Below are positions 13,606 to 47,436 of a stretch of DNA of 48,769 bases, piece by piece (positions within the stretch are counted from its first letter, which is position 1; every line of letters begins with the position of its first letter). Source of the stretch: a bacterium (lineage in GTDB: Bacteria; Bacillota_I; Bacilli_A; RF39; UBA660); NCBI GenBank assembly GCA_029007115.1, contig JAQXHG010000008.1:1-48769 (forward strand), in the 5' to 3' direction. The notes below the pieces were generated by a model. That model searched no databases and had not been told where the DNA came from. It saw nothing but the letters and a program-made list of their open reading frames with translations. Both the position numbers and the translations under genes were made by a program.

Positions 13606-13629
13606 ATAGTGTCTCCTTTCACTAAATAA

Positions 13630-13735
13630 AAAGTTTCCTAAGGCAAGGAAACTATAATATAATCGTCATTATAAAATTGTTTCCTCGGTAAGATTTACTT
13701 GCATACTTACTGTCTTTGGTCACTTCAACGTGTTT
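13630..13735 (-). ncRNA. ribosomal protein L10 leader (autoregulatory)
   Basis: The rplJ 5' UTR contains the L10 leader core GACCAAAGACAGTAAGT and, further on, TCTTACCGAGGAAAC. L10, in complex with L12, binds such leaders to repress its own operon. The leader ends in a perfect 8-bp hairpin (13632-13653, AGTTTCCT/AGGAAACT) followed by TTTTATTT, so control is probably by premature termination. Confidence 0.88.
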
Positions 13736-13736
13736 A

Positions 13737-13765
13737 ACTATACCATAAATTCTATGGTTTGTAAA
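13737..13765 (-). promoter_or_regulatory. sigma-A promoter of rplJL
   Basis: The minus strand carries TTTACA, a 17-nt spacer and TATAGT, directly upstream of the L10 leader and just after the end of the preceding gene. Confidence 0.85.
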
Positions 13766-15365: not shown

Positions 15366-15366
15366 A

Positions 15367-17025: not shown

Positions 17026-17123
17026 CTTATATTCTCCTAATAGTAGTAAAAATATCCCATTAAAATTGTTTATTAATATATCAAAATCGCAACCTAATGT
17101 CAATAAAAGACTATCTTTCATAT

Positions 17124-26913: not shown

Positions 26914-27264
26914 TTAGTGTTTTACTTTAAAAAATATACTAATTATAAACGCCATACAAATTGCAATACTAAGTCCCGCTGATGCATTTACAAGTATTCC
27001 TTTAAATAAACCAATTACACCATATTTTAAATATCCCTCACTCGCTCCACTTACAAGCAAGTAACCAAAATTCAAGATAGGAACGCATGCACCTGCATGA
27101 AATATATCAATTATTTTATCATAAATTTTAAATCCAGATAAAATACAGCCAATAACAACTAAACCTGTATTAATATGACCGGGAGTTAATTTAGTTTTTT
27201 CAATTACATATTGTGATATTGCACATACAACACCACAATACAAATAAGATAATAAATATGTCAA
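26914..27264 (-). CDS. spoVAE: stage V sporulation protein AE
   Basis: A 116-residue integral membrane protein with three or four TM helices, of the SpoVAC/SpoVAEb family (PILNFGYLLVSGASEGYLKYG motif). With SpoVAC and SpoVAD it forms the channel that moves Ca-dipicolinate into the forespore and out at germination. It starts with TTG behind GGAGGTG and overlaps the spoVAD TGA stop (TTGA). No clear terminator follows before the alaS promoter. Confidence 0.93.
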   Translation of the reverse strand: MTYLLSYLYCGVVCAISQYVIEKTKLTPGHINTGLVVIGCILSGFKIYDKIIDIFHAGACVPILNFGYLLVSGASEGYLKYGVIGLFKGILVNASAGLSIAICMAFIISIFFKVKH

Positions 27265-28235
27265 TTTGACACCTCCAAACTAATTGCATGTGCAATTGAA
27301 GGTATTGGTAATTTTAAATTTGTACTAATTACTGAATGTAAAGACCCAGTACCTATTACTAATATCTTCTTATATTGTTTTTGTTTTAAAATATAGTCAA
27401 ATAATACAAGTGGCAAACATACAGGACCACTAGCTCCAGCAAAAATATTATCTTCATTATAAAATATACTACCAGAGTCAATAATGTTATTAAGTTTTTC
27501 TTTAGTTACGTCATTATAGTATTCTTTTACAATTTCTATTCCATATATTCCAAGATCACCTGTCAATATTAAATCATAATAATTACTTTTTCTTTTTGTT
27601 TCTTTTAAATGTTTAATTAAAGTTTCACTACAAGCACTTGCCATAGCTGATCCCATATCATTAGTATCTTTATGATTAGTTGTTATAACACTACCAATAG
27701 TGGCCGATTCTATCTTTATTTTTGATTTTGTATTATTTAAAAGTACAGCTACACTACCACTTGCTGTTAATGTATTAGTTCTTTTTCTAAGTGCTCCATA
27801 TTCAATTGGAAATCTAAATTGTTTTTCACTTACTAAATTATGTGATGAAGAAGAAACAATAACATTTGAATTACTTCTTCCATTTATAAACATACTTCCA
27901 ATTACCATTCCTTCAATAAATGATGCACAAGCTGAATATATACCTAAAGTTGGAATCAAAAATTTATTTGATGCTAAAGTTGATGAGAGTATTTGATTTT
28001 GAAGATCTCCATTTATTAAGATATCTATTTTATCATTAGTTATTTTTGTTTTTTCTAAAAGTCCATCAATTACTATTTCTTGATATTTAGACTCACATAA
28101 TTCTACACATTTTTGTCCCATATAATAATCATTTTTAAAATAATCTACATCATTTAATACTATTGGAGTGTATTTATCACTAGCAAGAAGAGAATATTTA
28201 TCTTTTATATATACATTGTTAAAATAATATGTCAT
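27261..28235 (-). CDS. spoVAD: stage V sporulation protein AD
   Basis: A 324-residue thiolase-fold protein, close to the usual 338. SpoVAD binds dipicolinic acid on the inner spore membrane. Family marks include the Cys-containing GIYSACASFIEGMVIGS segment, a Gly-rich TASGSVAVLL segment and the C-terminal KKILVIGTGSLHS. The ATG overlaps the spoVAC stop by four bases (ATGA) and is preceded by AAGGAG. Confidence 0.95.
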   Translation of the reverse strand: MTYYFNNVYIKDKYSLLASDKYTPIVLNDVDYFKNDYYMGQKCVELCESKYQEIVIDGLLEKTKITNDKIDILINGDLQNQILSSTLASNKFLIPTLGIYSACASFIEGMVIGSMFINGRSNSNVIVSSSSHNLVSEKQFRFPIEYGALRKRTNTLTASGSVAVLLNNTKSKIKIESATIGSVITTNHKDTNDMGSAMASACSETLIKHLKETKRKSNYYDLILTGDLGIYGIEIVKEYYNDVTKEKLNNIIDSGSIFYNEDNIFAGASGPVCLPLVLFDYILKQKQYKKILVIGTGSLHSVISTNLKLPIPSIAHAISLEVSN

Positions 28236-28657
28236 ATTACACTCCTTATAAATCCAAATATTATTCCAAATACAACACCATATAGAATAATACTACCAGT
28301 TAATTTAAATATATTTGAACCAATTCCTCTTACAAAACCTTCTTTATTATTATCCATAGCAGAACTAGTCATACTATTAGCAAATCCAATTGATGGAACT
28401 ATTAATCCACATTTACAAATACTTAGTACTTTATCAAAAAAACCAAATCCTGTAAATATTGAACCAATTACCACTAGTACTATAAATACTGCTAAATATG
28501 AATCATTAGTATTCATAAAATTATCAAATATATTTGCAAGAAATTCTCCAAATACTCCAATTAATCCGCCACTTAAAAAAGCAACTAAAACATTTTTTGA
28601 AATATCGTCTTCTTTTATTACCTTTTTAATTATTTCATCATATTTTTCATTATTCAT
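28232..28657 (-). CDS. spoVAC: stage V sporulation protein AC
   Basis: A 141-residue membrane protein with four predicted TM helices and the family motif IVPSIGFANSMTSSA. SpoVAC is the mechanosensitive core of the dipicolinate channel. First gene of a minimal spoVAC-AD-AE operon without spoVAA, AB or AF, the clostridial-type set. GGTG precedes the ATG. A sigma-G promoter is expected but I could not identify one with confidence. Confidence 0.95.
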   Translation of the reverse strand: MNNEKYDEIIKKVIKEDDISKNVLVAFLSGGLIGVFGEFLANIFDNFMNTNDSYLAVFIVLVVIGSIFTGFGFFDKVLSICKCGLIVPSIGFANSMTSSAMDNNKEGFVRGIGSNIFKLTGSIILYGVVFGIIFGFIRSVI

Positions 28658-30376: not shown

Positions 30377-30916
30377 TTACTTTTCTTCTTTTCCAAATTT
30401 TATTTCAATTACTAATTCATATATTTGATATATAAATATTAAGAAACATGGAACTAATATTATAAATAAGAATCCCCATTTAGAATTAACTACACTTAAA
30501 ACTGAACCTATATTTTTGTACACTTTTTCTGGAGTACCAATAACTAATTTCATATCAAATGTACTACCATTTTCAAATGAAATATCATTTTCACTTTCAT
30601 ATACTTTACCAACTACTCCAAATTCGATAAACGTCTCATTATTATTAATTCTATATGCAAATGCTTCATCCCCAACTTTGATTGGATCTTTAATTGATGG
30701 ACCTAGTTTCTTTTGTCTTAGAATTACTAAATCTCCTTTTTTGTATTTATCAGAAGAAAAATCCTCTTTTATTACTAATAGTATTCTATCTCCAAATTGT
30801 GTAAGACCATATTCATTATAATTTAATAATAATATTGTCATAGATAATGCAAACAAGAAGAATACAATTAATATTAGATTTAATATTATTTCTTTTATTT
30901 TATCTACTACTTTCAT
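30377..30916 (-). CDS. SipW-like signal peptidase homologue lacking catalytic residues
   Basis: 179 residues: TM1 at about 10-31, an extracytoplasmic domain, TM2 at about 147-169. The layout and sequence trend match SipW/ER-type signal peptidases: FGDRILLVI, KKGDLVIL, VVGKVY, and a C-terminal WGFLFIILVPCFLIF helix. The catalytic SGSMEP segment is replaced by IKEDFSSD (49-56), and the His of the family's THRI segment is Tyr (AYRI, 87-90). It should therefore be inactive as a protease. Last gene of an operon of camelysin-like proteins, where an active SipW is normally found. The ATG at 30916 is chosen for GAGGAG nine bases upstream. Confidence 0.7.
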   Translation of the reverse strand: MKVVDKIKEIILNLILIVFFLFALSMTILLLNYNEYGLTQFGDRILLVIKEDFSSDKYKKGDLVILRQKKLGPSIKDPIKVGDEAFAYRINNNETFIEFGVVGKVYESENDISFENGSTFDMKLVIGTPEKVYKNIGSVLSVVNSKWGFLFIILVPCFLIFIYQIYELVIEIKFGKEEK

Positions 30917-30973
30917 TTTATTTAACTCCTCTATAATAATTCTAACATAAACTATTTTAACTATCAACTATAT

Positions 30974-31852
30974 TTAACATTCATTAGACTGAGTAATTTC
31001 AAAATCATCTAAAGTATAATTTATTTTATTATCTACTCTATAAAATATAAAATTTTTTAATGACTTAGTTGGAATATTAACGTTTATTTCATTTATATAC
31101 CCACTACTATCCATATTATAATTTATTATACCATCTTTATTAATTCTAAATTTATTACTATCCCAAGATAACTTAATACATTTATCTTCTGTAAATGTAT
31201 TATTTATAATTACCCTACTATAATCTTCATACTCATCATATATAAGATTAGTTTTTCCACTTTCATCAAGACCTCTTGTTAAAATAAATTCACTTATAAT
31301 TGTTTTTTTATATGGATATGTACTTTCAAGTATTACTTCAACAACTGCACTACTTATTTGAGAATTATCATCACTATTTATATCAAAATACATATCTTTT
31401 ATTGTTTCTTTTGATCTATACTCATATCCATTATCAATGCAAGTTTGATAATCCATACTACTCACATTAGTATTACCGCTTAAATCTACACATTCTTTAT
31501 AACTAGATAAAACACCTGTTAAAGTATTTGTATTAGTATTATTTAGAAAACACTTAGCATTTGAATTATCTTTTATATTACATGTAACTTTATAATTAAT
31601 ATCATAATCAGTAGCAATAAGACTACTATTAGAGTTCTTAATATCAAAATGAATACTACTACCATCCCAATTATTATTAACATTAGATGAAGTAAGAACA
31701 TCACTATTAAAATAAAATCCCTTTGTTCCCAAATAATAATTCCATATTGAATTGCCTGCATATTTAGCTAGTGATATTCCAGATATAAATATTCTAATTA
31801 TTATTAGTGAAGATAAAATGATTAATAAAATCTTAGTTCTTTTTTTCATCAT
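30974..31852 (-). CDS. camelysin/TasA-like secreted protein
   Basis: A 292-residue protein with a single N-terminal hydrophobic helix (about 7-28) ending in SGISLAKYAGNS, resembling the signal region of SipW-dependent proteins. The rest is beta-rich, Asn/Ser-rich and carries six or so Cys, suggesting an extracytoplasmic, disulfide-bearing domain. No sortase motif or second TM is present. Overlaps the preceding gene by four bases (ATGA). Probably a minor subunit or anchor of the surface structure encoded by this locus; function inferred only from context. Confidence 0.65.
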   Translation of the reverse strand: MMKKRTKILLIILSSLIIIRIFISGISLAKYAGNSIWNYYLGTKGFYFNSDVLTSSNVNNNWDGSSIHFDIKNSNSSLIATDYDINYKVTCNIKDNSNAKCFLNNTNTNTLTGVLSSYKECVDLSGNTNVSSMDYQTCIDNGYEYRSKETIKDMYFDINSDDNSQISSAVVEVILESTYPYKKTIISEFILTRGLDESGKTNLIYDEYEDYSRVIINNTFTEDKCIKLSWDSNKFRINKDGIINYNMDSSGYINEINVNIPTKSLKNFIFYRVDNKINYTLDDFEITQSNEC

Positions 31853-32400
31853 TCACCTACCTTCTGATAACTTTCTATTTTTAAATCTATATAATCAATT
31901 AAACTAGAATATTCATATGAATTATATTCTTCATCAAAAGTTAACCTTAATATATAATTATCAATTATATTAGTGTCATAATTCATCTGTTGTTTTTCAC
32001 TTTTACATACTAATTCATTTTTTTCATTTCTAGAATAAGACTCATCACAAGTCATTATCAATACTTCACTGCTATTTTCTTTATATAATTCAATTTTTAA
32101 TGGCATAAAATGATATGTATTAACAATAATATTATAAATTATTGTAACGTCGCTTGATATGTTTGATTCATTCTCTTCTAAATTATTACTAACAGAAAAA
32201 CTATAATCTTTAACATCGCCTGGTTTTAAATCATATAATGGCAATTCTATTAAGTCAGTCTTTTGCGCATTAAATATAAATTTTGCTATATTTTGATTAG
32301 TTATAGCATCAACACTAGTACTTAATGCTGAATAAGTAATACCAGATAGCAATATTATAGAAATTATAAAAAATATAATTATAATTACTTTCTTTCTCAT
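31849..32400 (-). CDS. camelysin/TasA-like secreted protein
   Basis: A 183-residue protein. The N-terminal hydrophobic helix ends in SGITYSALSTSV and is followed by AKFIFNAQKTDLIELPL and LKPGDVKDYSFSVSN, the pattern of the camelysin/TasA (peptidase M73-like) fold. Two Cys (CDESYS, VCKSE) could form a disulfide. It starts two bases after the large beta-helix gene and overlaps the next gene by four bases, so all three are co-translated. Confidence 0.75.
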   Translation of the reverse strand: MRKKVIIIIFFIISIILLSGITYSALSTSVDAITNQNIAKFIFNAQKTDLIELPLYDLKPGDVKDYSFSVSNNLEENESNISSDVTIIYNIIVNTYHFMPLKIELYKENSSEVLIMTCDESYSRNEKNELVCKSEKQQMNYDTNIIDNYILRLTFDEEYNSYEYSSLIDYIDLKIESYQKVGE

Positions 32401-32402
32401 AT

Positions 32403-35400
32403 TTAACTATCCCCCCTTACTATAAATTTCTGATCAACTAGCGTTACTAATTTATCTCCATCATATAACTCAAATATTAATTTATAACCATTTAAATCAA
32501 GTTTCTCTGTATCTAATAGTAATTCAAATCTAGTATAATTTGTATTATATGGGGCTTGTTTTAATGCATATATAGTATTTTCACTATATAACTCAACTTC
32601 CCCACTTATATAATCTACAATATTAACTAAATCATAACTCTGATTATATGCAGTCAATTCTCTCTTCTTATATAAACTAACCCTAACATTAGGATTATCT
32701 AGTCTACTCATTTGTAGTATATCAAATTCTAATGCTTGAATTCCATTTTTGTTAATAACTCTATTTTCACTATTCATAATAACATCAAAATTAAATTCTT
32801 TTTTTAGATTGCCATCTATAATTAATGGAATTAACTTGCATTCATTATTATTACTTTCATTATAATTAATACCATCATAGGATAAATAAGGACAAACTTT
32901 AAATACATATTCACCCTCTTCAATATCAAAATTATCAGTATATGTTTGAATATTTAAATTACCTATCATATTATTATCTAAATCAATATTAACAATACCC
33001 TTACTATTTGGATGATAACTAGTATCATCTATCATAAACTTAACATTATTTAAATATTTTTTATTCATTACAGTAGAAGTTGTTTTATTATATAAACTTA
33101 TTTCTAAACCATATTTCATATCTTCATATTCACTATCATATATTGTTAAATCATCTAACGAAAAATAATTTAACTTTAATTCATAAGGAATTATATTTAA
33201 ATAATCTTGATTATAATTAATAGTATTACTGTAATTTATTTCTAAAGAAACACGAGCTTTTACATCATTATCGTTATAGCCATCATAAATATTAAATGAC
33301 TTTATATTATCTTTAAGAGTTGTTATTTTTATATTATTATCATCAATTATACTCATATATATATTAATATCTTTATAATTGTTAGTAACTTGTGTATTAC
33401 TAAAATCTATAATTACATCAAAATCTTCATTAATTTTTCCTATATAGTCACTATCTTTAAAATACTTATCATCTATACTACCTACTTCTATAAAATTAGA
33501 TAATAAATATGTTGATATGTTGTTAGTACTATATCCATAATCATCAGAAGTTAATGTATATGTATATACTTTATTAGTATTGTTGTCAATTAATGTAAAT
33601 TTAGTATTTTCTGGTAACTTAGTATTTGATATTAATACATGTTTTAATTCACTTGTAAATTCATTATCATCAATAAACTTTGTATTAAACTTTATTGACG
33701 AATTATTTGTAATATTTAAATTATTACCAGTAAAAATATTTCTTCCAACCGTTAAATCACTTTGAGAGTATCCTTTTAATATAATATAATCTGTATTTAT
33801 ATAAGAATAATAATCAGTATTATCTTTAACCCTAAAATATATTATTTTAGGTGTTTGACTTGATATATTAAACTCTACATATTGGTTCCAAAGAGAATTA
33901 TCTAATGCACTTAGCTCTTCTTCACTAAGTGCTATATCACTAATATAGTAACTTACTTTTTCTAATTTAGTATATTCTTCATTTACACTAACACTTACTT
34001 TAGTACTTTCATTTATATATAGATAATCATTTGGAGTATTAAATGAACTAAATTCATTATTACCAATTATAGCCTTTATTATAGAAGTATCTAAATCTAT
34101 TGATAATATATCACTATTTATATATGTTATTTTATCATCACTATCAACTATCTTAGCATAAATAATATATTTTCCAGGAGTATTAACTTCAACAATATTA
34201 CTATATTCTACCCACTCAATATTTTCTAATTCATCACTTGATAATGATACATCACTATTGTGAATATAATAATATATATTTTTTATACTAGATATCTCAT
34301 TTCCACTTGTTATACTAAATATAAATTTATTACTAAATTTAAGAGTATTTAAATCATTAGATAAATTATTCCATGAAAACATACTAACATTAATTTTAGC
34401 AATTGGATTATTTAAATCATCTATATATAGTATTGGATATTCATTATTAGTAATCACCCATACATTATCACTAATTAGTGCATTTTCTAAATTTACATAT
34501 TCACTAAAACCAAGAGTATCCTTTACAAAAGATGAATTTTTAAAATTACTTTCACTAGTACTAATAAAACTTATCTCATTAGAACTTTCTTTAACACTAC
34601 TATTATGAGTTATATATGAATTATTTATTGTAACTGTTGATAAACTATCTATTCTATTTATTCCGTATGTTCCATATATAGAAAAAGAATTAGTTATTGT
34701 TACTTGAGAATTATTATTAATGCTGTTTATAAAAGAATAACTCTCAGAAGAATTTAAGTTTCCACTATTATAACAATTTGTAATATTAATATTACCATCT
34801 GTTTCATTAATTAAGCCAGTAGATAACTTACTTGTAATATTTCCCTTATTATAACTATTTTTTAATGATATAGTATCACTAGCATTAAATATTAATCCAG
34901 ATGCTATACCACTTGTATAAACATCAATTGAATTTACTACATTTTCTAAACTAGTATTATTTGCATTAACTATAAGACCACTAGCCACCTTATAATCTGT
35001 AGTTACACTATACTTTAAATTACTTAAAGTAATTTGACCGATACCACTAATTGAATAATTAATATTATCTTTAGTATTACCAAGTGTAATACTAAAATTC
35101 CCCTCTTCAATTACTTGATCATTTATTTTAAATTCTTCTATTTCACCACTTTTACTATAAACACCAGTTAACGTTGATGAAATAATATTTCCATTTATTA
35201 ATATACTTGATAAATCAATAACACCATCTACATCACTAATAGTATCATCTAAGTCATATGTATCTACATTATTAGATGAAGATGATATTAAATATCCATC
35301 ATATAAAACATTTTTTATATTAGCATTATTTGAATTTATTGCAAGACCACTACTTATAACACCACCATTAATAACACTATTTTCTATATATAAATTATTA

Positions 35401-35909
35401 ATATTTCCATTTAAATTCTTAAATAACGATACTTCTTCTAAACCACTATCAATAAATAGTCCATATATTTTAAATCCATTACCATCTAAATTACCATTAA
35501 AAGTATCTATCATACTTATTTTATTTACATTAAATTCATTTATATAATATGTTTCATCTTCATACTTATATTTAATATTTGTTTCATCATAACTAAATAA
35601 TCCTTTATTTAAAACAATATCATTATTTAATTTAAAGTATACACCTTCATAATTAGTAGTTTTAAGATTCTCTACAAAGAAAGCAAATTCTTGACCATTT
35701 GAAATGATATACGGGTTATCTATACTACCGCTTCCACTTCTATATTCACTAGCAATAGTACCATCCCATTCTACTACTTGATAATAATTAGTTCTATTTT
35801 TATATCTTGAAAGTGTAGGAATACTTATAGATACAATAAAAAGAATACCTATTATAATTAATAAATATTTAAACTTTTTACTAATTTTTATTGTACTAAA
35901 CTTCCTCAT
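32403..35909 (-). CDS. large exported beta-helix / Ig-like surface protein
   Basis: 1168 residues with one N-terminal TM or signal helix (about 14-30) and no C-terminal anchor or sortase motif. After GSGSIDNPYIISNGQEFAFF, residues about 60-480 form short repeats with N-x-S/N-N-turns (DGNGFKIYGLF, NGNINNLYIENS, NNANIKNVLYDG) typical of GLUG/right-handed beta-helix regions. Residues about 500-1160 look like Ig-type beta-sandwich modules (GKYIIYAKIVDSDDKI and a similar IIYFRVKD segment). It is very rich in Asn, Ser, Thr, Tyr and Ile. First gene of the second fibre-locus operon. Likely an adhesin or fibre-tip component; this is inference. Confidence 0.72.
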   Translation of the reverse strand: MRKFSTIKISKKFKYLLIIIGILFIVSISIPTLSRYKNRTNYYQVVEWDGTIASEYRSGSGSIDNPYIISNGQEFAFFVENLKTTNYEGVYFKLNNDIVLNKGLFSYDETNIKYKYEDETYYINEFNVNKISMIDTFNGNLDGNGFKIYGLFIDSGLEEVSLFKNLNGNINNLYIENSVINGGVISSGLAINSNNANIKNVLYDGYLISSSSNNVDTYDLDDTISDVDGVIDLSSILINGNIISSTLTGVYSKSGEIEEFKINDQVIEEGNFSITLGNTKDNINYSISGIGQITLSNLKYSVTTDYKVASGLIVNANNTSLENVVNSIDVYTSGIASGLIFNASDTISLKNSYNKGNITSKLSTGLINETDGNINITNCYNSGNLNSSESYSFINSINNNSQVTITNSFSIYGTYGINRIDSLSTVTINNSYITHNSSVKESSNEISFISTSESNFKNSSFVKDTLGFSEYVNLENALISDNVWVITNNEYPILYIDDLNNPIAKINVSMFSWNNLSNDLNTLKFSNKFIFSITSGNEISSIKNIYYYIHNSDVSLSSDELENIEWVEYSNIVEVNTPGKYIIYAKIVDSDDKITYINSDILSIDLDTSIIKAIIGNNEFSSFNTPNDYLYINESTKVSVSVNEEYTKLEKVSYYISDIALSEEELSALDNSLWNQYVEFNISSQTPKIIYFRVKDNTDYYSYINTDYIILKGYSQSDLTVGRNIFTGNNLNITNNSSIKFNTKFIDDNEFTSELKHVLISNTKLPENTKFTLIDNNTNKVYTYTLTSDDYGYSTNNISTYLLSNFIEVGSIDDKYFKDSDYIGKINEDFDVIIDFSNTQVTNNYKDINIYMSIIDDNNIKITTLKDNIKSFNIYDGYNDNDVKARVSLEINYSNTINYNQDYLNIIPYELKLNYFSLDDLTIYDSEYEDMKYGLEISLYNKTTSTVMNKKYLNNVKFMIDDTSYHPNSKGIVNIDLDNNMIGNLNIQTYTDNFDIEEGEYVFKVCPYLSYDGINYNESNNNECKLIPLIIDGNLKKEFNFDVIMNSENRVINKNGIQALEFDILQMSRLDNPNVRVSLYKKRELTAYNQSYDLVNIVDYISGEVELYSENTIYALKQAPYNTNYTRFELLLDTEKLDLNGYKLIFELYDGDKLVTLVDQKFIVRGDS

Positions 35910-35945
35910 TAATTCTAATATTCCTCTACTATCTATTCATAATAA

Positions 35946-35954
35946 ATTATAGCA
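35946..35954 (-). promoter_or_regulatory. extended -10 promoter of the second fibre-locus operon
   Basis: The minus strand reads TGC-TATAAT, with no strong -35, about 37 nt before the ATG of the 1168-residue protein and just after the terminator of the previous unit. Confidence 0.6.
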
Positions 35955-35967
35955 TATTTATTGTAAG

Positions 35968-36011
35968 AAAAAAAGAGTAATCATTTAAGATTTCCTTAAT
36001 AAATTACTCTT
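35968..36011 (-). terminator. intrinsic terminator after the first fibre-locus operon
   Basis: A 9-bp stem (AAGAGTAAT with ATTACTCTT), extended inside by TTAAG/CTTAA, is followed by seven T residues on the minus strand and overlaps the stop of the 543-residue gene. Confidence 0.85.
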
Positions 36012-37635
36012 CTTCAGTATCCGCATTTTCTACTTGCTCTGAATCTAATATTTTTTTAGTTTGTACCATAAACCAAATCTTTTCAACAGAAGAACTGCTT
36101 TTATCTATTATACCTGCTCTTAATATTAGTTTTATTTTATTATATAGTGATATAATGTTTTCTTCAGATATATCACTTTCTTCTATTTTTAAATTGTTTA
36201 GTTTATATTTATTAGCAATTATACTTGATAAATTATAATCATCAAATATTTTTATTCCTTTAACAATTAAATTATTAGGATTCATAGAATATAAATCAAA
36301 ATCATTACTTATATCAATTATTTCATCATAATCATTTGTTTCATATGATTTTTGAATATCACTTTTCTTTAAATAGTCAAAACTATAATATAAATGTAAT
36401 ACATCTTCTACTGTTGTATCAACACTAACCATCTTTCTTATTCTATCTTTATTAACTTCATCATCATATTTATTATATAATTCCATTAACTCATTTACAT
36501 AATGATTAGCAAGAATCTTAGTTTTTTCAACTTTATTCTTAAATAAAGTATCAAATAATTTACTACTTTCATGAAAAATTACTTTATTACACTTATCTAA
36601 TTCTTTTTCTTTCTTTACTATTTCATTTAACATGTCTTTTGATTTAGTATTTTTATCATTTATTAAATTTTTATAATCATTTTTAAATAATGTAAATAAA
36701 GGTATAAACTTTATATAGTTTTGATATTCTTCAACATTATATTTTAATTTTGCTAAAACATCTCGTATTTTATCCATCTCTTTTTCATCCTCAGTGTCAA
36801 TATCATCTGGAATAATAGATGAAAATGCATTAATCCTTACTTTATTATCTTCAAAATAGTGATTAATATCCAAAGAGCCCTCTAACGCAAGAGAAATTAT
36901 CTTACCGATAGTTTCTTCTTCTAATTTTTCAAGTTCAGAATATTTATTTTTTAATTTTTCTAAACACTCTTCATAATCTTTAATATTATATTCTTTCATA
37001 GTTTTCTTTTGAAGTTTTAAAATATTATCATCAAATAATTTAGCATTTTTTCTAATAAGTATTTTAAAATTTAAAGCTAAATGATTAATTAAATCAGGAT
37101 TTAACCAATATATTCTTTCAAATATTTCACTTACTTTATCATACTTTTTGTCTATTTTATATCTAACATCTAAAAATGCGCTCATATATTCATTGACATA
37201 AGATGTTATTCTAAAATCTTCTGACTTTAGATTTAATCCAATTATTTCAAATTTATCTAAAAATGCATTAATTATATCATTTAAAGAATGAAAATTAAAT
37301 TTACTAAAATTATTAATTTGATATAATAGTTCATCAAATCCTAATTTTTCAATATATGTATTAGAAGGATTTAATAAAAATCTTAATTGTTCTAAAGAAA
37401 TAACTTCCTTTTTAACTTTTTCATATTCTTTATTATCTTCTTTTATTTCAAAAGAATGACTCTTAACAATTAAATAATTTTTAACATTGTCTTTATATAC
37501 TTTATATTTCTCTTCAATTTCTTCAATAGTGGTATTAATTTTCTTTTTATTAGTTTTAGTTTTACTTGGCATACTTGTAATCATTGTTTTTTTACTAGCA
37601 ATATCTCTAGTTATAAAATCTAAAAAATTATTCAT
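36004..37635 (-). CDS. large cytoplasmic helical protein of unknown function
   Basis: About 543 residues, highly charged, with no signal or TM segment. Long stretches are predicted helical and partly coiled-coil (KYKVYKDNVKNYL; ECLEKLKNKYSELEKLEEET; MLNEIVKKEKELDKCNK). It ends in an acidic tail. I recognise no known domain. Its ATG lies within the last codons of the 50-residue gene (8-nt overlap), with AGGA upstream, so its translation is coupled to that gene. It is the distal gene of an operon of TasA-like surface proteins, so it may act on the cytoplasmic side of their export or assembly. The 37635 start is preferred over an in-frame TTG at 37656, which has no ribosome site. Confidence 0.75.
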   Translation of the reverse strand: MNNFLDFITRDIASKKTMITSMPSKTKTNKKKINTTIEEIEEKYKVYKDNVKNYLIVKSHSFEIKEDNKEYEKVKKEVISLEQLRFLLNPSNTYIEKLGFDELLYQINNFSKFNFHSLNDIINAFLDKFEIIGLNLKSEDFRITSYVNEYMSAFLDVRYKIDKKYDKVSEIFERIYWLNPDLINHLALNFKILIRKNAKLFDDNILKLQKKTMKEYNIKDYEECLEKLKNKYSELEKLEEETIGKIISLALEGSLDINHYFEDNKVRINAFSSIIPDDIDTEDEKEMDKIRDVLAKLKYNVEEYQNYIKFIPLFTLFKNDYKNLINDKNTKSKDMLNEIVKKEKELDKCNKVIFHESSKLFDTLFKNKVEKTKILANHYVNELMELYNKYDDEVNKDRIRKMVSVDTTVEDVLHLYYSFDYLKKSDIQKSYETNDYDEIIDISNDFDLYSMNPNNLIVKGIKIFDDYNLSSIIANKYKLNNLKIEESDISEENIISLYNKIKLILRAGIIDKSSSSVEKIWFMVQTKKILDSEQVENADTEEE

Positions 37636-37780
37636 CTTCTTTTTCCTTTTCTTCAATTTCTATTTTATTTTCATCAAGAAAATTTAAAAACTCACTAATA
37701 TTCTCGTATACCTGTATTAACTCCCTTAATTCCAAATTAGATAAATCAAAATCCACTTTTTCTTCTTTAACTTTCCTCAT
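37628..37780 (-). CDS. small acidic protein, 50 residues
   Basis: A short ORF beginning MRKVKEEKVDFDLSNLEL and ending in a run of Glu/Asp/Lys (IEIEEKEKEDE). It fills the gap between the 379-residue TasA-like protein and the 543-residue helical protein, follows an AAAGGA site, and overlaps the next start by 8 nt. An in-frame ATG at 37789 would add three residues. The sequence looks like a single amphipathic helix with an acidic tail. Real coding status is supported by spacing and overlap but not by any known family. Confidence 0.6.
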   Translation of the reverse strand: MRKVKEEKVDFDLSNLELRELIQVYENISEFLNFLDENKIEIEEKEKEDE

Positions 37781-37798
37781 AAATATCATTTTCCTTTT

Positions 37799-38938
37799 TT
37801 ATTCATAATTATCCCAACCATTAGTATCTTTAACAAAGTTTATAGAAAGATTAATTTCTGCTCCTTCTGAGTCAGTTTCAATACTATCTATATCTCCACC
37901 TTCTATCCATACATAAATTCTTGCTTTAGTGATTCCATGTGGTATTGTAAATAAAGGTTTATCAAAATCCTTTTCTGTTATAGTTTTCTGAAGCGCAAAT
38001 GATTTTGTATCTAGAGTTGGAGACCCAGATAAAGTATCTATTATCTCAGCTTGATTAACACCTTGAATATTTGCATATGTTGGATAATACTCACCGTCAA
38101 TTACCGTTAAATTAAACTTATTAGCTTTATCAATAGACATTTGAGTATGAGATGTACTATTAGGTTCATAAATAATTGATTTACAATTGTTATTACATTG
38201 AATACTTTGTGCCTCTTTAGCAGTCGCATCCATTGGAACACTTCCAACTTTCACTATACCAATTCTAATTGAATTGAAAAGTCCCTCCATTTGTTCTGAT
38301 AGTTCTTCAACTGCTTTAACACCTGTACCTATATCGAAATATAAATTATCCGCTGTTGGTGAACCATTATTATCATTTCTAAAAAATATATCAAACGCTA
38401 AAAATCCAGAAGATTTCTTAGGCTGAGTTTGAGGATAAAATACAGTTTGTACATATCCATCTTCTCTTAATAGAAGATTATGATATTTTACACCTGGACT
38501 TCTATAAATATCAAAGAAATAAGAATTATTACTTTTATTACCTATTGTTGAAACAGGAAATAATCCACCTGTTGACCAAAAACTTTTATGATTAGGATAA
38601 TTTACTGGGACATCTTCAAATAATACATTTTCAGAAATCTCGATTTCCTCTGCATAATTAACTGCATCAAATGAAATTTCTAATCCTGCATTTTTAGAAA
38701 CTAACATATTAAATGTCTTAATTCTAACATTAAGTGTTGATGAAAACCATGCATATGTTGAAAATATCAATAATATACCAAGAAAAGTCAATGAAATTAA
38801 AGCAGCAATAAATCTACTTTTAGAAATAGGTTGTCTATTATTAACTTTTCTTTTTTTCGTAGTTTTCTTTTTACTTTTTACTTTATTATTACTAATTTTA
38901 GGCTTTGTTTTTTTTGTATTTTCAACATTTTTACCCAT
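37799..38938 (-). CDS. TasA/camelysin-like surface protein with SipW-type signal
   Basis: 379 residues. A Lys-rich N-terminus of about 45 residues precedes a TM/signal helix ending in FSTYAWFSS, the TYAWF mark shared with the two upstream genes. The ectodomain has a WSTGGLFPVSTIG segment, a two-Cys motif (IQCNNNCKS) before EPNSTSH, and a C-terminal ARIYVWIEGGDID strand, all shared with the 421-residue pair. Behind GGAGG. Likely a minor fibre subunit or base protein; the unusually long basic cytoplasmic tail would suit an anchored form. Confidence 0.8.
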   Translation of the reverse strand: MGKNVENTKKTKPKISNNKVKSKKKTTKKRKVNNRQPISKSRFIAALISLTFLGILLIFSTYAWFSSTLNVRIKTFNMLVSKNAGLEISFDAVNYAEEIEISENVLFEDVPVNYPNHKSFWSTGGLFPVSTIGNKSNNSYFFDIYRSPGVKYHNLLLREDGYVQTVFYPQTQPKKSSGFLAFDIFFRNDNNGSPTADNLYFDIGTGVKAVEELSEQMEGLFNSIRIGIVKVGSVPMDATAKEAQSIQCNNNCKSIIYEPNSTSHTQMSIDKANKFNLTVIDGEYYPTYANIQGVNQAEIIDTLSGSPTLDTKSFALQKTITEKDFDKPLFTIPHGITKARIYVWIEGGDIDSIETDSEGAEINLSINFVKDTNGWDNYE

Positions 38939-38960
38939 TAAAACACCTCCTAATATGAAA

Positions 38961-38991
38961 TAAAGAGTAATTATAATTATTACTCTTTATA
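38961..38991 (-). promoter_or_regulatory. 12-bp stem-loop between fibre-subunit genes
   Basis: A perfect 12-bp inverted repeat (ATAAAGAGTAAT with ATTACTCTTTAT, loop of 7) lies in the 100-nt gap between the second 421-residue gene and the 379-residue gene. It is followed by only a weak T tract, so it may be an attenuator or an mRNA-stabilising or processing element that makes the upstream subunits more abundant. Confidence 0.6.
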
Positions 38992-39038
38992 GTCATTTTA
39001 ATTATTATGTATTAATAATTACTTTTTTCTACTAAATA

Positions 39039-40304
39039 TTAAATACTTCCTGTTGGAGTTATATTAGTACTAGGACCATGATAATCTACATCAGTTTCAG
39101 TATATCTTTCTTTAGTAAATCCAAAGTTAACTGAAATTTGTTTTCCTAATGAAGCAAAATCATAATTATCAACATCTTGACCTTCTAAATATACATATAC
39201 TCTAACTTTAGTAATACTATTTGGTGCTAAAGTCATAAATTGAGGTCTATCATTTCCAGTCTTATTTTTCATAGTATCAGTAAAATAAGGGAAATCTATT
39301 AATTTAAATGTTGATTTATCAGATGCTGCTAAATAATTTTCATATGTATCAGTGTTAGCAGTATAAGTATTGTACTTTTCTCCATCATATACATCTACTT
39401 GGTCAGCTATATTTATTACTTTACTAACTGCATAAGTTGGATATGCATTACTATCAGCAACTGCTGTACAATCTTCTCCTTTGTTATAAGACGCAGGATC
39501 ACTTACAGTAGTTCCTGATGATTTTCTAACTTTACAAGCAGTATTATACCAATTAATTGCATTAGTAACATGAGATGTATCATTTGGCTCCCAAATTTGA
39601 GCATTTCTACAAATACCAGTTACACCTTTACCATCATCATTACTACAAGTTATACCTGTAATAATTTCTGCATTTTCAGTAGTACCAATTACACGTCCTA
39701 TTTGTAAGAATGCTACTCTAATTGAATTTTCAATACCAGTATTTTCAACACCTGCTGTTGAAACTGAAACTTTTGAGTTTGTTGTTAAATAAATTGCTTC
39801 TTCATTTAAAGGCTCATTAGTTGCATAATATTCTTCACCTGATAAGTTTTTAATGAATAAATCAAATGCAACATATCCTTTACCTTGATTTAATGCACCA
39901 CTACCAGTAGCAGCAGTTCTATAATTATCAACACGACTAGTTAACAATCTATAACCACCTGAACTAGGTGTTAAACTAGCTTTTTCATATAATTTCATTC
40001 TAGAAACTGTAGAGTCAGCTTCTCCTATAGTAGACATAGGAATTAATCCATCTGTTGCCCATGTATTTGTATTTCCATCATATTGATGCGCCGTTCCAAC
40101 ATTTAAATTGTATTGCCAATCAGCACCATCCATTGATAAGAATAAACCTTCTGTTGTAGCAATTTCGATTTCAAATTGACTAACATTAACAGTTTTCATA
40201 CCAATGAACCATGCATATGTTCCAACGGATAATATGATAGCAAATAAAGCACAAACAGTAATCAAATTTCTTAATTTTCTATTTCTTTTTTTATTTGTTG
40301 CCAT
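39039..40304 (-). CDS. TasA/camelysin-like surface protein with SipW-type signal (paralogue B)
   Basis: 421 residues and a clear tandem paralogue of the upstream gene of equal length. A short basic N-terminus and a hydrophobic helix end in SVGTYAWFIGMKTVNVS. The ectodomain shows GYVAFDLFIKNLSG, TGIENSIRVAF, a Cys-containing ITCSNDD...IC loop, IWEPNDTSH, NAINWYNTACK and VRVYVYLEGQDVDNYDFASLGKQ. Four Cys positions match paralogue A, implying two disulfides. TasA-type proteins polymerise into extracellular fibres by donor-strand exchange; I infer this role here. AGGAG precedes the ATG. Confidence 0.83.
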   Translation of the reverse strand: MATNKKRNRKLRNLITVCALFAIILSVGTYAWFIGMKTVNVSQFEIEIATTEGLFLSMDGADWQYNLNVGTAHQYDGNTNTWATDGLIPMSTIGEADSTVSRMKLYEKASLTPSSGGYRLLTSRVDNYRTAATGSGALNQGKGYVAFDLFIKNLSGEEYYATNEPLNEEAIYLTTNSKVSVSTAGVENTGIENSIRVAFLQIGRVIGTTENAEIITGITCSNDDGKGVTGICRNAQIWEPNDTSHVTNAINWYNTACKVRKSSGTTVSDPASYNKGEDCTAVADSNAYPTYAVSKVINIADQVDVYDGEKYNTYTANTDTYENYLAASDKSTFKLIDFPYFTDTMKNKTGNDRPQFMTLAPNSITKVRVYVYLEGQDVDNYDFASLGKQISVNFGFTKERYTETDVDYHGPSTNITPTGSI

Positions 40305-40338
40305 TTTTTCTCCTTTTTATATTTTTTATAATATTACA

Positions 40339-41604
40339 CTAATTTCCAGCTGTTGCAGTATTTGTTGGGTCTTTATGATTTTCATAAATTACATCATCTG
40401 GTAATGTAGCTGTTCCTTCATCATTATAATCAACATCTTCACCAAAATATCTTTCTTTAGATAGACTAAAATTAACTGCAATTTGTTTTCCTAATGATGC
40501 AAAATCATAATTATCAACATCTTGACCTTCTATATAAATATAAATTCTAACTTTAGTAATACTATTTGGAGCTAATGTGATAAATTCAGGTCTATCATTA
40601 CCTCTTAAATTCTTTTCAGTATCTGTAAAGTAATCTACTTCATTTAATTTTCCTGCTGTTGGTGTACTTGCAATTGAAGTAGTATATTCATTATAATCCG
40701 TTCCATCATATACATCTACTCTATCAGTATAATCAATTACACCACTTACAGCATAAGTTTTAGAATATTTTCCATCTTCTACTGTCTTACATGCACCTTC
40801 ATATGAAGCACCAAGTGTTAAATCTTCACCTGTTCTCTTCTTACAAGCTTTACTATACCAATTAATAGCATTAGCTGCATGATCAGTATCATTTGGTTCC
40901 CAAATTGTTGCTTTTCTCTTACTACAAATAGTAGTTACACCAGAAGTTTCAGCACATGAAATTCCTTGAATAGTTGTACTATCAGTTGTAGTTGCTACTA
41001 CACGACCAATTTGTGCAAATGCAACTCTTACAGAGTTTTCAATACCAGTGTCTGCAACACCAGCAGAACCTACTTTAACCATTGAATCTGGTTCTAAATA
41101 AATTGCTTCTTCATTTAATTGATTATATTCAGAATAATACTCATTTCCTGATAAGTTTTTAATGAATAAATCAAATGCAACATATCCACTTTTTTCTGCA
41201 CCTGCAGTATTTTCTACTAAACTAGCCATTAATCTATAACCACCAGGAGTTACAGTTAAACTTCCTTTTTCATACATTACTAGTTTAGATGTAGTATCGC
41301 TTACTACTCCTACTGTTGATATTGGGATTAAACCAGTTCCACCCCAAGTATTTGTATTGCCAGTATATGTTGCTACATTATAATTATCTTTATTTATACT
41401 AACTGTGTCAGCCCAAGTTATACCATCTAAAGATAAAGATAATCCATCAATTGCCGCTACTTTAACATCGAATGGCGAAACATTAACAGTTTTCATACCA
41501 ATAAACCATGCGTATGTTGATGTAGCTAGAAGAATTGTAAAAAGACCAGTCCCAACAATAAATCTTTTTATTCTTCTTTCATGTTTGTTATCTCTTTTTG
41601 CCAT
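40339..41604 (-). CDS. TasA/camelysin-like surface protein with SipW-type signal (paralogue A)
   Basis: 421 residues, with a signal helix ending in ATSTYAWFIGMKTVNVS followed by a beta-rich ectodomain. Conserved with paralogue B: WGGTGLIPISTVG, GYVAFDLFIKNLSG, LNEEAIYL, TGIENSVRVAFAQIGRV, IWEPNDTDH, NAINWYSKACK, DRPEFITLAPNSITKVRIYIYIEGQDVD. By eye the two are about half identical. The start overlaps the preceding stop by one base (TAATG). Probably a major fibre subunit. Confidence 0.83.
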   Translation of the reverse strand: MAKRDNKHERRIKRFIVGTGLFTILLATSTYAWFIGMKTVNVSPFDVKVAAIDGLSLSLDGITWADTVSINKDNYNVATYTGNTNTWGGTGLIPISTVGVVSDTTSKLVMYEKGSLTVTPGGYRLMASLVENTAGAEKSGYVAFDLFIKNLSGNEYYSEYNQLNEEAIYLEPDSMVKVGSAGVADTGIENSVRVAFAQIGRVVATTTDSTTIQGISCAETSGVTTICSKRKATIWEPNDTDHAANAINWYSKACKKRTGEDLTLGASYEGACKTVEDGKYSKTYAVSGVIDYTDRVDVYDGTDYNEYTTSIASTPTAGKLNEVDYFTDTEKNLRGNDRPEFITLAPNSITKVRIYIYIEGQDVDNYDFASLGKQIAVNFSLSKERYFGEDVDYNDEGTATLPDDVIYENHKDPTNTATAGN

Positions 41605-42317
41605 TATTTACTTCCTTTCTCCTTTTCATCAATAAATTCTGATTTAAAGTCTAAATGAGCTTTAAATTCACCACCCAAAATGTTATCAGTGCATTCTGGA
41701 TCACTTCCTTCAATCCACATGACTACAGTATATTTATGTATATCTCCTGGATTAAAGTCTGCAACGTGTTCACGCGCAATTATCTCATCTGATACAAAAG
41801 TGACTGTGCCTGACTCCGCAGTTCCTTTTGCAGATTTTTTAGCATACGTTACATAACTACCATCATTCTTATATATTCTAATTCTCACTGCTTCATCGAC
41901 ATTTTTAATAACATCATCAATAACAACTTCATAATAATAATTGTTAACTAAATCACCTTGATTTTCAATATAGAAAGTATAGGCGAGATAATTATCTCCA
42001 TTATGTGTTCCACCCATACTATCATGTAGATTATCAGGCAACCAACGATATGAAATATTGTCGAATGACTCAGGAGTCTTAGCATATAATTCAGAACGAT
42101 AGACTTTATAATTGACATCATCATAAATTATCATGCCTTTGTCAAAATATAAGTTTTTGTCTAACGTAACACTAAAATTCCCATTATTATAAAAAATACC
42201 TACTACAAAATACAAAATTAGGAAAAATAGCAATAAAACTAATATAGAGATTTTTAAAATCTTTTTAATTTTTTTCTCACGTTCTATTTTTTCACTACTT
42301 AATTTTGTCCTTCCCAT
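41604..42317 (-). CDS. single-TM TasA/camelysin-like protein, operon leader
   Basis: 237 residues. A basic cytoplasmic stretch and one TM helix (about 21-43) precede an ectodomain with NYLAYTFYIENQGDLVNNYYYEV and, near the end, YTVVMWIEGSDPECTDN, the same W-I-E-G-x-D strand as the three downstream proteins. It lacks the TYAWF mark, so it may stay membrane-anchored and act as assembly base or starter. First gene of the operon, behind AAGGG and a good sigma-A promoter. Confidence 0.75.
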   Translation of the reverse strand: MGRTKLSSEKIEREKKIKKILKISILVLLLFFLILYFVVGIFYNNGNFSVTLDKNLYFDKGMIIYDDVNYKVYRSELYAKTPESFDNISYRWLPDNLHDSMGGTHNGDNYLAYTFYIENQGDLVNNYYYEVVIDDVIKNVDEAVRIRIYKNDGSYVTYAKKSAKGTAESGTVTFVSDEIIAREHVADFNPGDIHKYTVVMWIEGSDPECTDNILGGEFKAHLDFKSEFIDEKEKGSK

Positions 42318-42396
42318 ATCCTATATCCCTTCATACAGTCATCTCGAAAAAACCATATGGCATAGTTATATTCCGATATCTTTATAATATAATTAG

Positions 42397-42426
42397 ATTA
42401 TACTTTAAATATACACATAAAGTCAA
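42397..42426 (-). promoter_or_regulatory. sigma-A promoter of the first fibre-locus operon
   Basis: The minus strand carries TTGACT, an 18-nt spacer and TATAAT. The predicted 5' UTR is about 70 nt and includes a CCATATGG palindrome followed by six T; I see no known riboswitch in it. Confidence 0.85.
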
Positions 42427-46472: not shown

Positions 46473-47423
46473 TTATCTTAATTTTCTTTCTAATACCGGA
46501 TTACTACTTTTAATATCAATAATATCTTGTAATCCTAAAGTTTCAATTACAGAGGTAAAATCTTCCATTAAATCCCCACCCTTAATATTTAATTTTATAG
46601 GTTCTTGGATTAATATATCTCCTTTTTGTAAATCTAATAACTCTCTTATCATTTCTTCCTTACAACTAATTCCGTAAGACCATCCCCAACCTCTTCTTTG
46701 AAAATCCATTGTTTCTAATACTCTAAATAATATTCTTCTTAAAAATTCTTTATTACATTGAGTTTTATAAAAACTAGATATATTTAAACTCTCATTATAT
46801 TTCTTTATTTGAACAATTATATAGGCTATTTCATCTTCTACTTTAGATAACATTACTGAATTTAAATCAACTATATATCCAGAATGTTCTAATGCTTTTA
46901 TAATATTTGCTATAATAATTGCCCTATTTTGAATTTGTTTATCTGTAGTATTTTTATCATAAGACAAAGTAACATAAATTTTAATAAATTTTGGTTGAGA
47001 AACTTTATGTGTTTCTTCATATACTAAAGGTGCTCCAGCACAATAAGCAGGCACATTAACACGACCACCCGCTACAGTCTTAACTGTTTTATATTTTTGA
47101 GTTTTAATACTCTTAGCTTTAATTAAATTATTTTTTAATCTTAATATATCATCAATTTCAAAATTATCTAGATGATCCAAATTAACTAAACTATCTAAAG
47201 TTTCATTAAAAGATCTTCCTGCAAAACAAGAATCTTGCTCATCACTATCGGTTATTTCAAATATATCACTATTAATTTTAGGATTACTTATAAGATAAGT
47301 ATAAAGTGAATGCAAAGTATTAAATCTCGCTTTATATATTGTATAATCTCTACCATTAATATTAACTACATATGGAGAAAAAATATTAATTGGAAAATTT
47401 TGTTGATTATAACTCTCTTTCAT
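46473..47423 (-). CDS. DUF7192-like protein
   Basis: 316 residues, soluble. The SCFAGRSFNETLDSL segment and a later RAIIIANIIKALEHSGYIVDL segment are the two marks I associate with DUF7192-type proteins of phages and accessory regions; KTVAGGRVNVPAYCAGAP lies between. It is coded 13 nt after an AAA+ ATPase of CobS/MoxR type, a known pairing. Function is unknown. Confidence 0.65.
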   Translation of the reverse strand: MKESYNQQNFPINIFSPYVVNINGRDYTIYKARFNTLHSLYTYLISNPKINSDIFEITDSDEQDSCFAGRSFNETLDSLVNLDHLDNFEIDDILRLKNNLIKAKSIKTQKYKTVKTVAGGRVNVPAYCAGAPLVYEETHKVSQPKFIKIYVTLSYDKNTTDKQIQNRAIIIANIIKALEHSGYIVDLNSVMLSKVEDEIAYIIVQIKKYNESLNISSFYKTQCNKEFLRRILFRVLETMDFQRRGWGWSYGISCKEEMIRELLDLQKGDILIQEPIKLNIKGGDLMEDFTSVIETLGLQDIIDIKSSNPVLERKLR

Positions 47424-47436
47424 ATTATCTATTTTC

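Follow-up and report, generated by a model that had tools for sequence, protein, structure and literature searches.

The window, by which we mean the whole 48,769-nucleotide stretch of DNA analyzed here, carries ten minus-strand genes, A to J, which form two tight operons (A to F and G to J). We found all ten genes where the preliminary description had placed them. Its picture of two adjacent operons with promoters and terminators also held up, as we found conserved promoters and two terminators. The features are as follows.

42397..42426, minus strand: sigma-70-type promoter of operon 1 (TTGACT, 18 nt, TATAAT; 11/12 match)
42373..42393, minus strand: conserved block ATTATATTATAAAGATATCGG, just 3' of the -10 element, aligned upstream of A in relatives
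41604-42317, minus strand: A, 237 aa, conserved in type I and type II loci
40339-41604, minus strand: B, 421 aa, presumed major fiber subunit with a SipW-type leader
39039-40304, minus strand: C, 421 aa, presumed major fiber subunit
37799-38938, minus strand: D, 379 aa, distant homolog of B/C
37628-37780, minus strand: E, 50 aa, acidic, cytoplasmic, no transmembrane (TM) helix, 8-nt overlap with the start of F
36004-37635, minus strand: F, 543 aa, cytoplasmic, no TM helix
35968..36009, minus strand: intrinsic terminator of operon 1, after F (13-bp stem, then T7)
35946..35956, minus strand: extended -10 element of operon 2, TATGCTATAAT, upstream of G
32403-35909, minus strand: G, 1168 aa, anchored or secreted beta-helix-like repeat protein
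31849-32400, minus strand: H, 183 aa, exported, pilin-like, with an invariant Ser at -1 in a 14-sequence alignment
30974-31852, minus strand: I, 292 aa, pilin-like and exported; its place between H and J is conserved
30377-30967, minus strand: J, S26B (SipW/SEC11-type) signal peptidase homolog with two TM helices
30348..30372, minus strand: intrinsic terminator of operon 2, after J (-9.0 kcal/mol, z -3.7)

A consensus scan by itself returned promoters at the chance rate and, of the terminators, only the one after J. The terminator after F was spotted by eye and by folding; its stem consists of 8 + 5 bp with an internal loop (-10.1 kcal/mol, z -3.1). For the promoters, we compared loci. TTGACA/TTGACT-16-TATAAT is recognizable upstream of A in L034, L036, and L098, and nine loci share an aligned TATG(N)TATAAT-like block upstream of G. 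The block ATTATATTATAAAGATATCGG may be a transcription start or an operator. The Rfam matches in the window were limited to one tRNA and one L10 leader. Beyond the terminator after J lies an O-antigen-ligase-like gene, and the spore genes SpoVAD and SpoVAC/AEB are found at 27261-28657.

Candidate fiber subunits and their partners

In a topology scan, A, C, D, G, H, and I each had a single hydrophobic helix at the N terminus. The leader of B aligns with those of the other subunits, yet B fell below the threshold of the scan. We found no informative match for A to I in Pfam, NCBIfam, or PADLOC scans of the window proteins, and no match to sortase or LPXTG/Gram_pos_anchor among those scanned in Pfam and NCBIfam.

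B and C are 56% identical (20-sequence alignment), and comparison of D with the BC profile gave an hhalign probability of 100% (E 7e-40). D is a candidate minor or tip subunit. Scored with a loose regular expression, a SipW-type leader end was found in 40/40 BC and 18/18 D sequences, where the helix ends in a motif resembling [YFL][AS]x[FYL], and likewise in 14/14 H and 15/16 I sequences, as well as in 20/21 P and 21/21 Q sequences, which are encoded outside the window. The leader of I ends in [FLYM][AS][KR]Y. The motif [YFL][AS]x[FY] is absent from most A homologs (5 of 28 were positive by the loose expression), and the C-terminal strand region of A matches the D2 profile (E 2e-6, 42 columns). 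A is a candidate base or initiator of the fiber, a membrane-anchored subunit with no SipW-type cleavage motif.

The preliminary description had called these proteins camelysin/TasA type. As a sequence family, this was not supported. No window protein matched Pfam Peptidase_M73 at the cut-off, the only near hit being H (E 0.34, 11.2 versus 22.5 bits), and profile comparison with camelysins gave probabilities of at most 62%, mostly over short stretches of the leader region. Our sequence searches did not place B to D in TasA/camelysin (M73), and this comparison did not find homology to camelysins. One type II paralog passes TIGR04088 (19.2 versus 19 bits). The genome to which the window belongs carries an M73 protein, L061.

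We also looked at the fold. F33, V39, and F44 are invariant in 20 B/C/D sequences, and M36 is present in at least 90%. The donor-strand hydrophobic anchors of TasA are F29, I32, and F39 (PMC9674648), to which F33, V39, and F44 may correspond, with the spacing off by one. We built an AlphaFold model of C from 6 sequences (mean pLDDT 44). Its best VIA-align matches were to subunits of donor-strand filaments, namely the TasA fiber 8aur (Z 5.5), the Sulfolobus 0406 filament 7pnb (Z 5.2), and FimA (Z 4.5-4.6); Z values below 8 can reflect only a common arrangement. Foldseek found nothing significant for the model in the PDB, and PDB profile searches with B/C/D gave nothing convincing. The low-confidence model of C hints at a donor-strand fold. 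The TasA-type fold predicted earlier for the 421-residue pair is weakly supported, by a TasA fiber and other donor-strand subunits at the top of the VIA-align matches, at Z of 5.5 or less and pLDDT 44.

The 50- and 543-residue cytoplasmic pair was borne out. E and F lack a TM helix, and HMM searches placed E homologs at the same site before F in most window-type relatives. F has no Pfam or NCBIfam match, a PDB profile search with it returned nothing convincing, and its AlphaFold model (2 sequences) is all-helical with a pLDDT of 37. Orthologs of G were found in most other window-type genomes, and type II loci have counterparts of 2300-3100 aa. G is a candidate tip adhesin.

J is 196 aa long from a TTG start or 179 aa from the ATG at 30916. 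Its best PDB profile match was SEC11A/C (E about 0.1), and hhalign matched it to two SipW proteins found in relatives, S2 (97%) and K (94%). Neither the Ser-Met nor the THR motif was present in any of the J homologs (21/21). Judged by these motifs, J is catalytically dead and is not classed as a peptidase; every copy examined lacks both the Ser and the His motif needed for catalysis, in agreement with the dead SipW homolog described before. That description also implied that an active SipW is missing. We found that it is present: K has GSM, THR, and GDANN motifs and is an active SipW by sequence. K adjoins J in several relatives, and in the window's own genome it is on another contig, C54.

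Gene order in relatives and the AAA+ module

We found F in 21 of 98 genomes of the family and in 47 of 241 of the order. D is present in 22 of the 98, and F and D occur together in 19 (Fisher p 3e-15 over the 98 genomes, kinship ignored). No F was found outside the family in a phylum sample, and no relatives of B/C/D or F were found among viral contigs. The distribution is patchy: about 20% of the sampled genera have the locus, and the congener G058 does not. The carriers are uncultured, small-genome, gut-type bacteria, known here from draft genomes alone.

In G143, G229, G188, G016, G031, and G037, the genes form one contiguous stretch, A-(BC)n-D-E-F / G-H-I-J-K-MB-MC-S2-P / Q, although G188 and G037 lose the start of operon 1 where their contigs end. 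B/C is duplicated in tandem, and in G101 E-F is duplicated along with BC. Thus, gene order is kept in relatives, as the preliminary description proposed to check, and because the genes co-occur as well, its refutation by genes that do not co-occur fails.

Its account of the locus was incomplete. On one contig with the fiber genes, at least 18 relatives encode a McrB-like AAA+ protein anchored in the membrane (MB), a DUF2357 protein (MC), a second SipW (S2), and more pilin-like proteins. The ten genes stand, as only part of a system whose remainder is on other contigs of the genome. Over the 98 genomes, the counts for both, the first only, MC only, and neither were 19/2/5/72 for F with MC and 21/1/3/73 for D with MC. 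Three of the five genomes with MC only have a different MB-MC system with no adjoining SipW.

In window-type genomes, K is fused to Kx, which elsewhere is a stand-alone protein before the AAA+ gene; the K extension matches the stand-alone Kx upstream of MB with a probability of 99.8% (E 4e-30). Wherever this stretch is complete in relatives, Kx-MB-MC has K on one side and S2 on the other. The genome of the window has the MB N terminus directly after K at a contig end, and contig C4 carries the MB C terminus, MC, S2, P, and Q, so that this MB is known solely from its two ends. Kinship of E or F with MC, Kx, or second-system proteins was rejected (hhalign <1%).

MB of G143 has a TM helix at residues 59-77, and we read a coiled-coil-like stretch in MB by eye. 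Walker A (GISGTGKTS), Walker B (ILDEMN), and NND are conserved in 16 MB sequences. MC proteins of relatives match PF09823 (DUF2357) above the cut-off (E 2.7e-12 and 1.7e-11). No nuclease family matched MC, and a D-(D/E)xK pattern is not conserved in 19 MC sequences. MC thus has no recognized nuclease and may keep a degenerate nuclease fold. MB matches the PADLOC candidate PDC-M26A.

Together with the fiber genes, the system matches CoCoPALM by domains, motifs, and neighbors. CoCoPALM was named in 2024 from its NTPase, and little was said on what such systems build; it takes up one paragraph in Bell et al. 2024, where neither SipW nor TasA is named in the main text (PMC11090510). Both have a McrB-like AAA+ protein that carries an N-terminal TM helix plus a coiled coil and an NxD-type motif, along with a DUF2357 protein as its partner and genes for signal peptidases. 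In contrast, candidate fiber subunits, a dead SipW, the E/F pair, the giant G, and the SipW-Kx fusion are described here.

A proposed fiber system and its alternatives

The best reading, which we consider probable though far from certain, is a SipW-processed, donor-strand-type fiber assembled at an AAA+ platform. From the locus we infer both filament formation and the motor function. The dedicated surface filament proposed earlier thus stands as a dedicated, conserved, exported-fiber-like locus, with the filament itself deduced from it. According to this model, Sec would export B, C, and D, and a SipW-type signal peptidase would cut after [Y/F]-A. B, C, and D would then polymerize in the manner of TasA, with the new N-terminal beta-strand of each subunit slotted into the one that follows. 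A would stay membrane anchored and probably start or anchor the fiber, H and I would be minor subunits along with P and Q, and the large, beta-helix-like G would probably be a tip or surface adhesin. At the membrane, J may hold precursors or subunits, a role proposed for S. pyogenes SipA in sortase pili, and E/F may be a cytoplasmic chaperone or targeting pair acting on pilins. The platform would take in the active K fused to Kx, MB, and its partner MC, and MB/MC would probably link the hydrolysis of nucleotides to fiber gating or assembly. In the window's own genome the parts need not be coexpressed, since a terminator and the O-antigen-ligase-like gene follow J and other contigs carry K and MB/MC.

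The usual view of TasA-type fibers is that they assemble extracellularly with no source of energy, and the AAA+/DUF2357-type motor-like pair is best known from antiphage restriction systems. Here, a fiber locus is tied to an AAA+ NTPase module of the McrBC world by gene order, co-occurrence, and gene fusion. Since the fiber cluster lies beside an ATP/GTP-driven motor-like pair in relatives, it may be an energy-linked fiber machine of a barely described kind. The locus supplies candidate fiber subunits and therefore a testable function for CoCoPALM, and it gives a concrete surface structure to seek in an uncultured, small-genome lineage. A bolder version, which we offer tentatively and would not expect to hold in full, is that a restriction-type motor has turned into a pilus motor. 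MB and its DUF2357 activator would drive or gate the export or assembly of donor-strand pili, with SipW-Kx as a physical link to the active SipW, J as a dedicated pseudo-signal-peptidase and subunit chaperone, and E/F as a cytoplasmic adaptor, in a new class of Gram-positive-type fiber machine.

The AAA+/DUF2357 pair recalls McrBC type IV restriction, which also has a McrB-like AAA+ protein and a DUF2357 McrC-like partner; in contrast, MB is membrane anchored, MC has no recognized nuclease, and the partner genes are pilin-like. S. pyogenes SipA resembles J in being signal-peptidase-like without catalytic residues and in lying in a pilus locus, where the proposal is that it enables polymerization of the pilus by binding a component on the surface (PMC4049620). 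SipA serves sortase-built pili, whereas J resembles the SipW/SEC11 branch and its locus has no recognized sortase signal. The window-type locus shares with B. subtilis tapA-sipW-tasA and B. cereus sipW-calY-tasA/CapP the SipW-type leader and an aromatic residue at mature +2, and its subunits may share a donor-strand beta-sandwich as well (PMC9674648, PMC10151520, PMC13082335). It differs in having many more subunits, a dead SipW, a giant beta-helix-like protein, the cytoplasmic pair, and the AAA+ module, and the mature domain shows no detectable sequence homology.

The locus could still be a plain TasA-like matrix or biofilm fiber locus that grew by subunit duplication, the McrB-like module being a neighboring defense system that plays no role in assembly. 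The tandem B/C duplication, the MB match to a candidate defense family, and the different contigs of the fiber genes and the module in the window's own genome all fit this. We nevertheless think it unlikely, given the fusion of SipW to Kx of the AAA+ module, a near-complete co-occurrence that is contiguous in 18 genomes, and an MC with no recognized or conserved nuclease motif.

A CoCoPALM-type conflict or defense apparatus, in which secreted fibers and AAA+/DUF2357 sense or block phage or competitor cells, seems quite improbable to us. No nuclease or toxin domain was recognized in the genes scanned. The patchy presence noted above would suit such an apparatus, but pili and adhesins are commonly patchy too; the membership of MB and MC relatives in the McrBC world (PMC11090510) also speaks for it. 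A system for the surface or the appendages of spores, in a bacterium that sporulates, seems very unlikely to us, as most of the family lacks the locus and several relatives have a canonical TTGACA-16-TATAAT promoter at A, the usual form for a vegetative sigma factor. On its side are the SpoVAD and SpoVAC/AEB genes at 27261-28657 in the window and the first naming of TasA as a spore component (PMC10151520).

Gene set and transcription units

The window's draft genome comprises 1.24 Mb in 54 contigs, and the window is contig C8 (48.8 kb) in full. We found all ten genes of the preliminary description on the minus strand, in the transcription order A, B, C, D, E, F, then G, H, I, J. These genes and those that accompany them in relatives encode the following.

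A, B, C, and D, minus strand, operon 1: exported pilin-like proteins
E and F, minus strand, operon 1: a cytoplasmic pair
G, minus strand, operon 2: a 1168-aa beta-helix-like protein
H and I, minus strand, operon 2: exported pilin-like proteins
J, minus strand, operon 2: a dead SipW homolog
K and S2: SipW-type signal peptidases
MB and MC: an McrB-like AAA+ protein and a DUF2357 protein
P and Q: further pilin-like proteins

In both operons, adjacent genes overlap or are separated by about 100 bp or less. The F-G interval holds a terminator (-10.1 kcal/mol, z -3.1) and an extended -10 element, and a second terminator lies 3' of J (-9.0 kcal/mol, z -3.7). When upstream regions of relatives were aligned, A was preceded by TTGACA-16-TATAAT-like promoters, and G by a TATG(N)TATAAT-like element. 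Because terminators follow F and J and promoter elements precede A and G, we uphold the earlier proposal of two operons. Directly 3' of A's -10 element, at 42373-42393, lies a block of ~20 nt, ATTATATTATAAAGATATCGG, which is kept in several relatives and is a possible operator.

Conservation of the locus and its link to MB and MC

We took the relatives' loci in two batches and annotated them with custom HMMs. Gene order, whose conservation the preliminary description had left to such searches, is kept and contiguous in several relatives. The window-type order, A-(BC)n-D-E-F / G-H-I-J-K-MB-MC-S2-P / Q with Q on the opposite strand, is unbroken in genomes G143 (locus L002, the same as L094), G229, G016, and G031 and also in G188 and G037, save that contig ends cut the start of operon 1 in the last two. 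In G083, operon 1 flanks the module from the opposite side. More divergent, type II loci (e.g., L046, L044, L052, and L101, the last from a one-contig genome) contain A, D-type subunits (one or two), a G-like protein of 2300 to 3100 aa, E-F, J, a further small gene of pilin-like type, a short K, H, Kx-MB-MC-S2-P, and Q. Fiber genes share a contig with MB or MC in at least 18 genomes. The loci have one to six B/C copies, and in G101 (L104) the E-F cassette and a B/C gene are duplicated together. In G031, a remnant of F lies between B/C genes (L038, 6284-6424).

K, an active signal peptidase of SipW type (NCBIfam TIGR02228, E 1e-19), bears a long cytoplasmic extension that matches the stand-alone Kx protein (hhalign probability 99.8%, E 4e-30). 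In type II loci, the Kx gene immediately precedes MB; Kx also has a distant relationship (probability 96.6%) to the gene that precedes MB in another of the family's MB-MC systems. MB (about 508 aa) has one transmembrane helix, a coiled-coil-like stretch, and an McrB-like AAA+ domain with the motifs GISGTGKTS (Walker A), ILDEMN (Walker B), and NND. MC contains DUF2357 (PF09823, E 2.7e-12), the McrC domain that activates McrB; we found in it neither a match to a nuclease family nor a conserved nuclease motif. S2, like K, is a peptidase of SipW type. A second MB-MC system in the family (L122, L123, L124, and L129) consists of a Kx-like gene, MB, MC, and a gene for a 420- to 440-aa protein, with no SipW alongside.

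In the window's own genome, the A-J part is on a different contig from K and MB-MC. K is at the start of contig C54, where 87 bases after its stop encode the MB N terminus (MNTFLRFFYEFISVFF...). Contig C4 ends within the MB AAA+ domain, and MC, S2, P, and Q follow. These ends are consistent with a single locus broken inside MB. With K and the MB N terminus on C54 and the MB C-terminal end, MC, S2, P, and Q on C4, the genome thus has the whole set.

Using D as a query, we found matches in 22 of 98 family genomes; the F profile matched 21, and 19 have both (Fisher p 3e-15, phylogeny ignored). The own-genome MC sequence matched 24 of the 98, 19 of which also have F (p 9e-14, kinship ignored). These tests disregard kinship, yet nearly each genome represents a separate genus; nearly all are drafts in many contigs. 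Five genomes have MC without F. In G005 (L051), the entire module is present together with A, J, and a D-type gene, and its F gene may therefore lie on a contig absent from the draft. The MB-MC system of G032, G035, and G045 is of another kind and has no SipW beside it. G076 shows a third arrangement, in which a SipW-type gene is accompanied by several exported proteins whose leaders are SipW-like. The F profile matched 47 of 241 order genomes, all 47 in the same family, and among 392 genomes sampled across the phylum its matches were confined to family members. D and F are absent from G058, another genome of the window's genus; the locus is therefore patchy.

Candidate subunits and the SipW homolog J

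The end of the single helix fits a loose regular expression, [YFL][AS]x[FYL], in all B/C (40/40), D (18/18), H (14/14), and Q (21/21) proteins and in nearly all I (15/16) and P (20/21) proteins; this leader-end motif is absent in 23 of 28 A proteins. YAWF, V39, and F44 are invariant in 20 B/C/D sequences. The N-terminal donor strand of TasA binds the next subunits through F29, I32, and F39 (PMC9674648), and the most conserved part of camelysins is the interface around F29 (PMC10151520). Counted from the Phe, TasA has F, +3 I, and +10 F, whereas B/C/D have F, +3 M (mostly), and +11 F.

The AlphaFold model of C, built on six sequences, was poor (pLDDT 44, pTM 0.51), and Foldseek found no significant match to it. 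We realigned 714 Foldseek candidates against this model. The top six were without exception subunits of filaments, of types known to use strand complementation: the TasA fiber (Z 5.5, 146 residues), the Sulfolobus 0406 filament (5.2), three FimA entries (4.6 to 4.5), and the TasA monomer (4.2). Since Z values below 8 may reflect a common arrangement, we regard these matches as suggestive of a donor-strand fold. Sequence profiles did not join the candidate subunits to camelysins, as the camelysin/TasA type assigned earlier would imply, and we claim no TasA/camelysin membership for them.

The earlier reading of J as a dead SipW held: the Ser-Met and Thr-His-Arg motifs are both absent in 21 J homologs and both present in K proteins and most S2 proteins. 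J retains the conserved C-terminal S-x-W-G-F-L-F helix and matches S2 (97% probability) and K (94%); its best PDB-profile matches were SEC11A/C (E about 0.1). Streptococcus pyogenes SipA, which is signal peptidase-like but without the catalytic Ser and Lys, is essential for pilus polymerization (PMC4049620). SipA is a precedent for a pilus-locus signal peptidase homolog without catalytic residues; J would represent a separate instance of this, apparently within the other branch of signal peptidases.

Proposed mechanism and further features

We hypothesize that K or S2 cleaves B/C (and D) and that the cleaved subunits polymerize outside, while A would remain anchored and start the fiber. G may sit at the fiber tip or surface, and J may hold subunits. 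Because E/F adjoin pilin genes and duplicate with them, they may bind precursors in the cytoplasm. MB/MC, linked to SipW via Kx, would power or gate assembly. MB/MC could instead serve defense and share only a neighborhood with the fiber genes, but the SipW-Kx fusion counts against this.

An McrB-like NTPase with signal peptidase genes was sketched as CoCoPALM by Bell et al. 2024 (PMC11090510). Within the collection of papers that we searched in full text, we found none on CoCoPALM beyond that one and its preprint, and none that relevantly links McrB with SipW. We therefore regard this CoCoPALM-linked fiber locus, with its identified candidate subunits, as a new variant.

We also noted the following features in the window and elsewhere in the genome.

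13618-13737: an ordinary L10 ribosomal leader RNA, ahead of the L10/L12 genes
13785-17121: two adjoining genes (526 and 584 aa), apparently paralogs, that have C-terminal motifs in common, e.g., RNYS and VRNF, and no Pfam match
27261-28657: the sporulation genes SpoVAD and SpoVAC/SpoVAEB, close downstream of the fiber locus, which make sporulation by the host probable; together with the genome size, they would be in keeping with gut Bacilli like RF39
46473-48735: a DUF7192 gene adjoining an AAA_5 (MoxR-like) gene, upstream of the fiber locus and FeoB
G000:C29:1808-3283 (L061): outside the window in the same genome, a distinct 491-aa protein that matches Peptidase_M73 at the family cutoff
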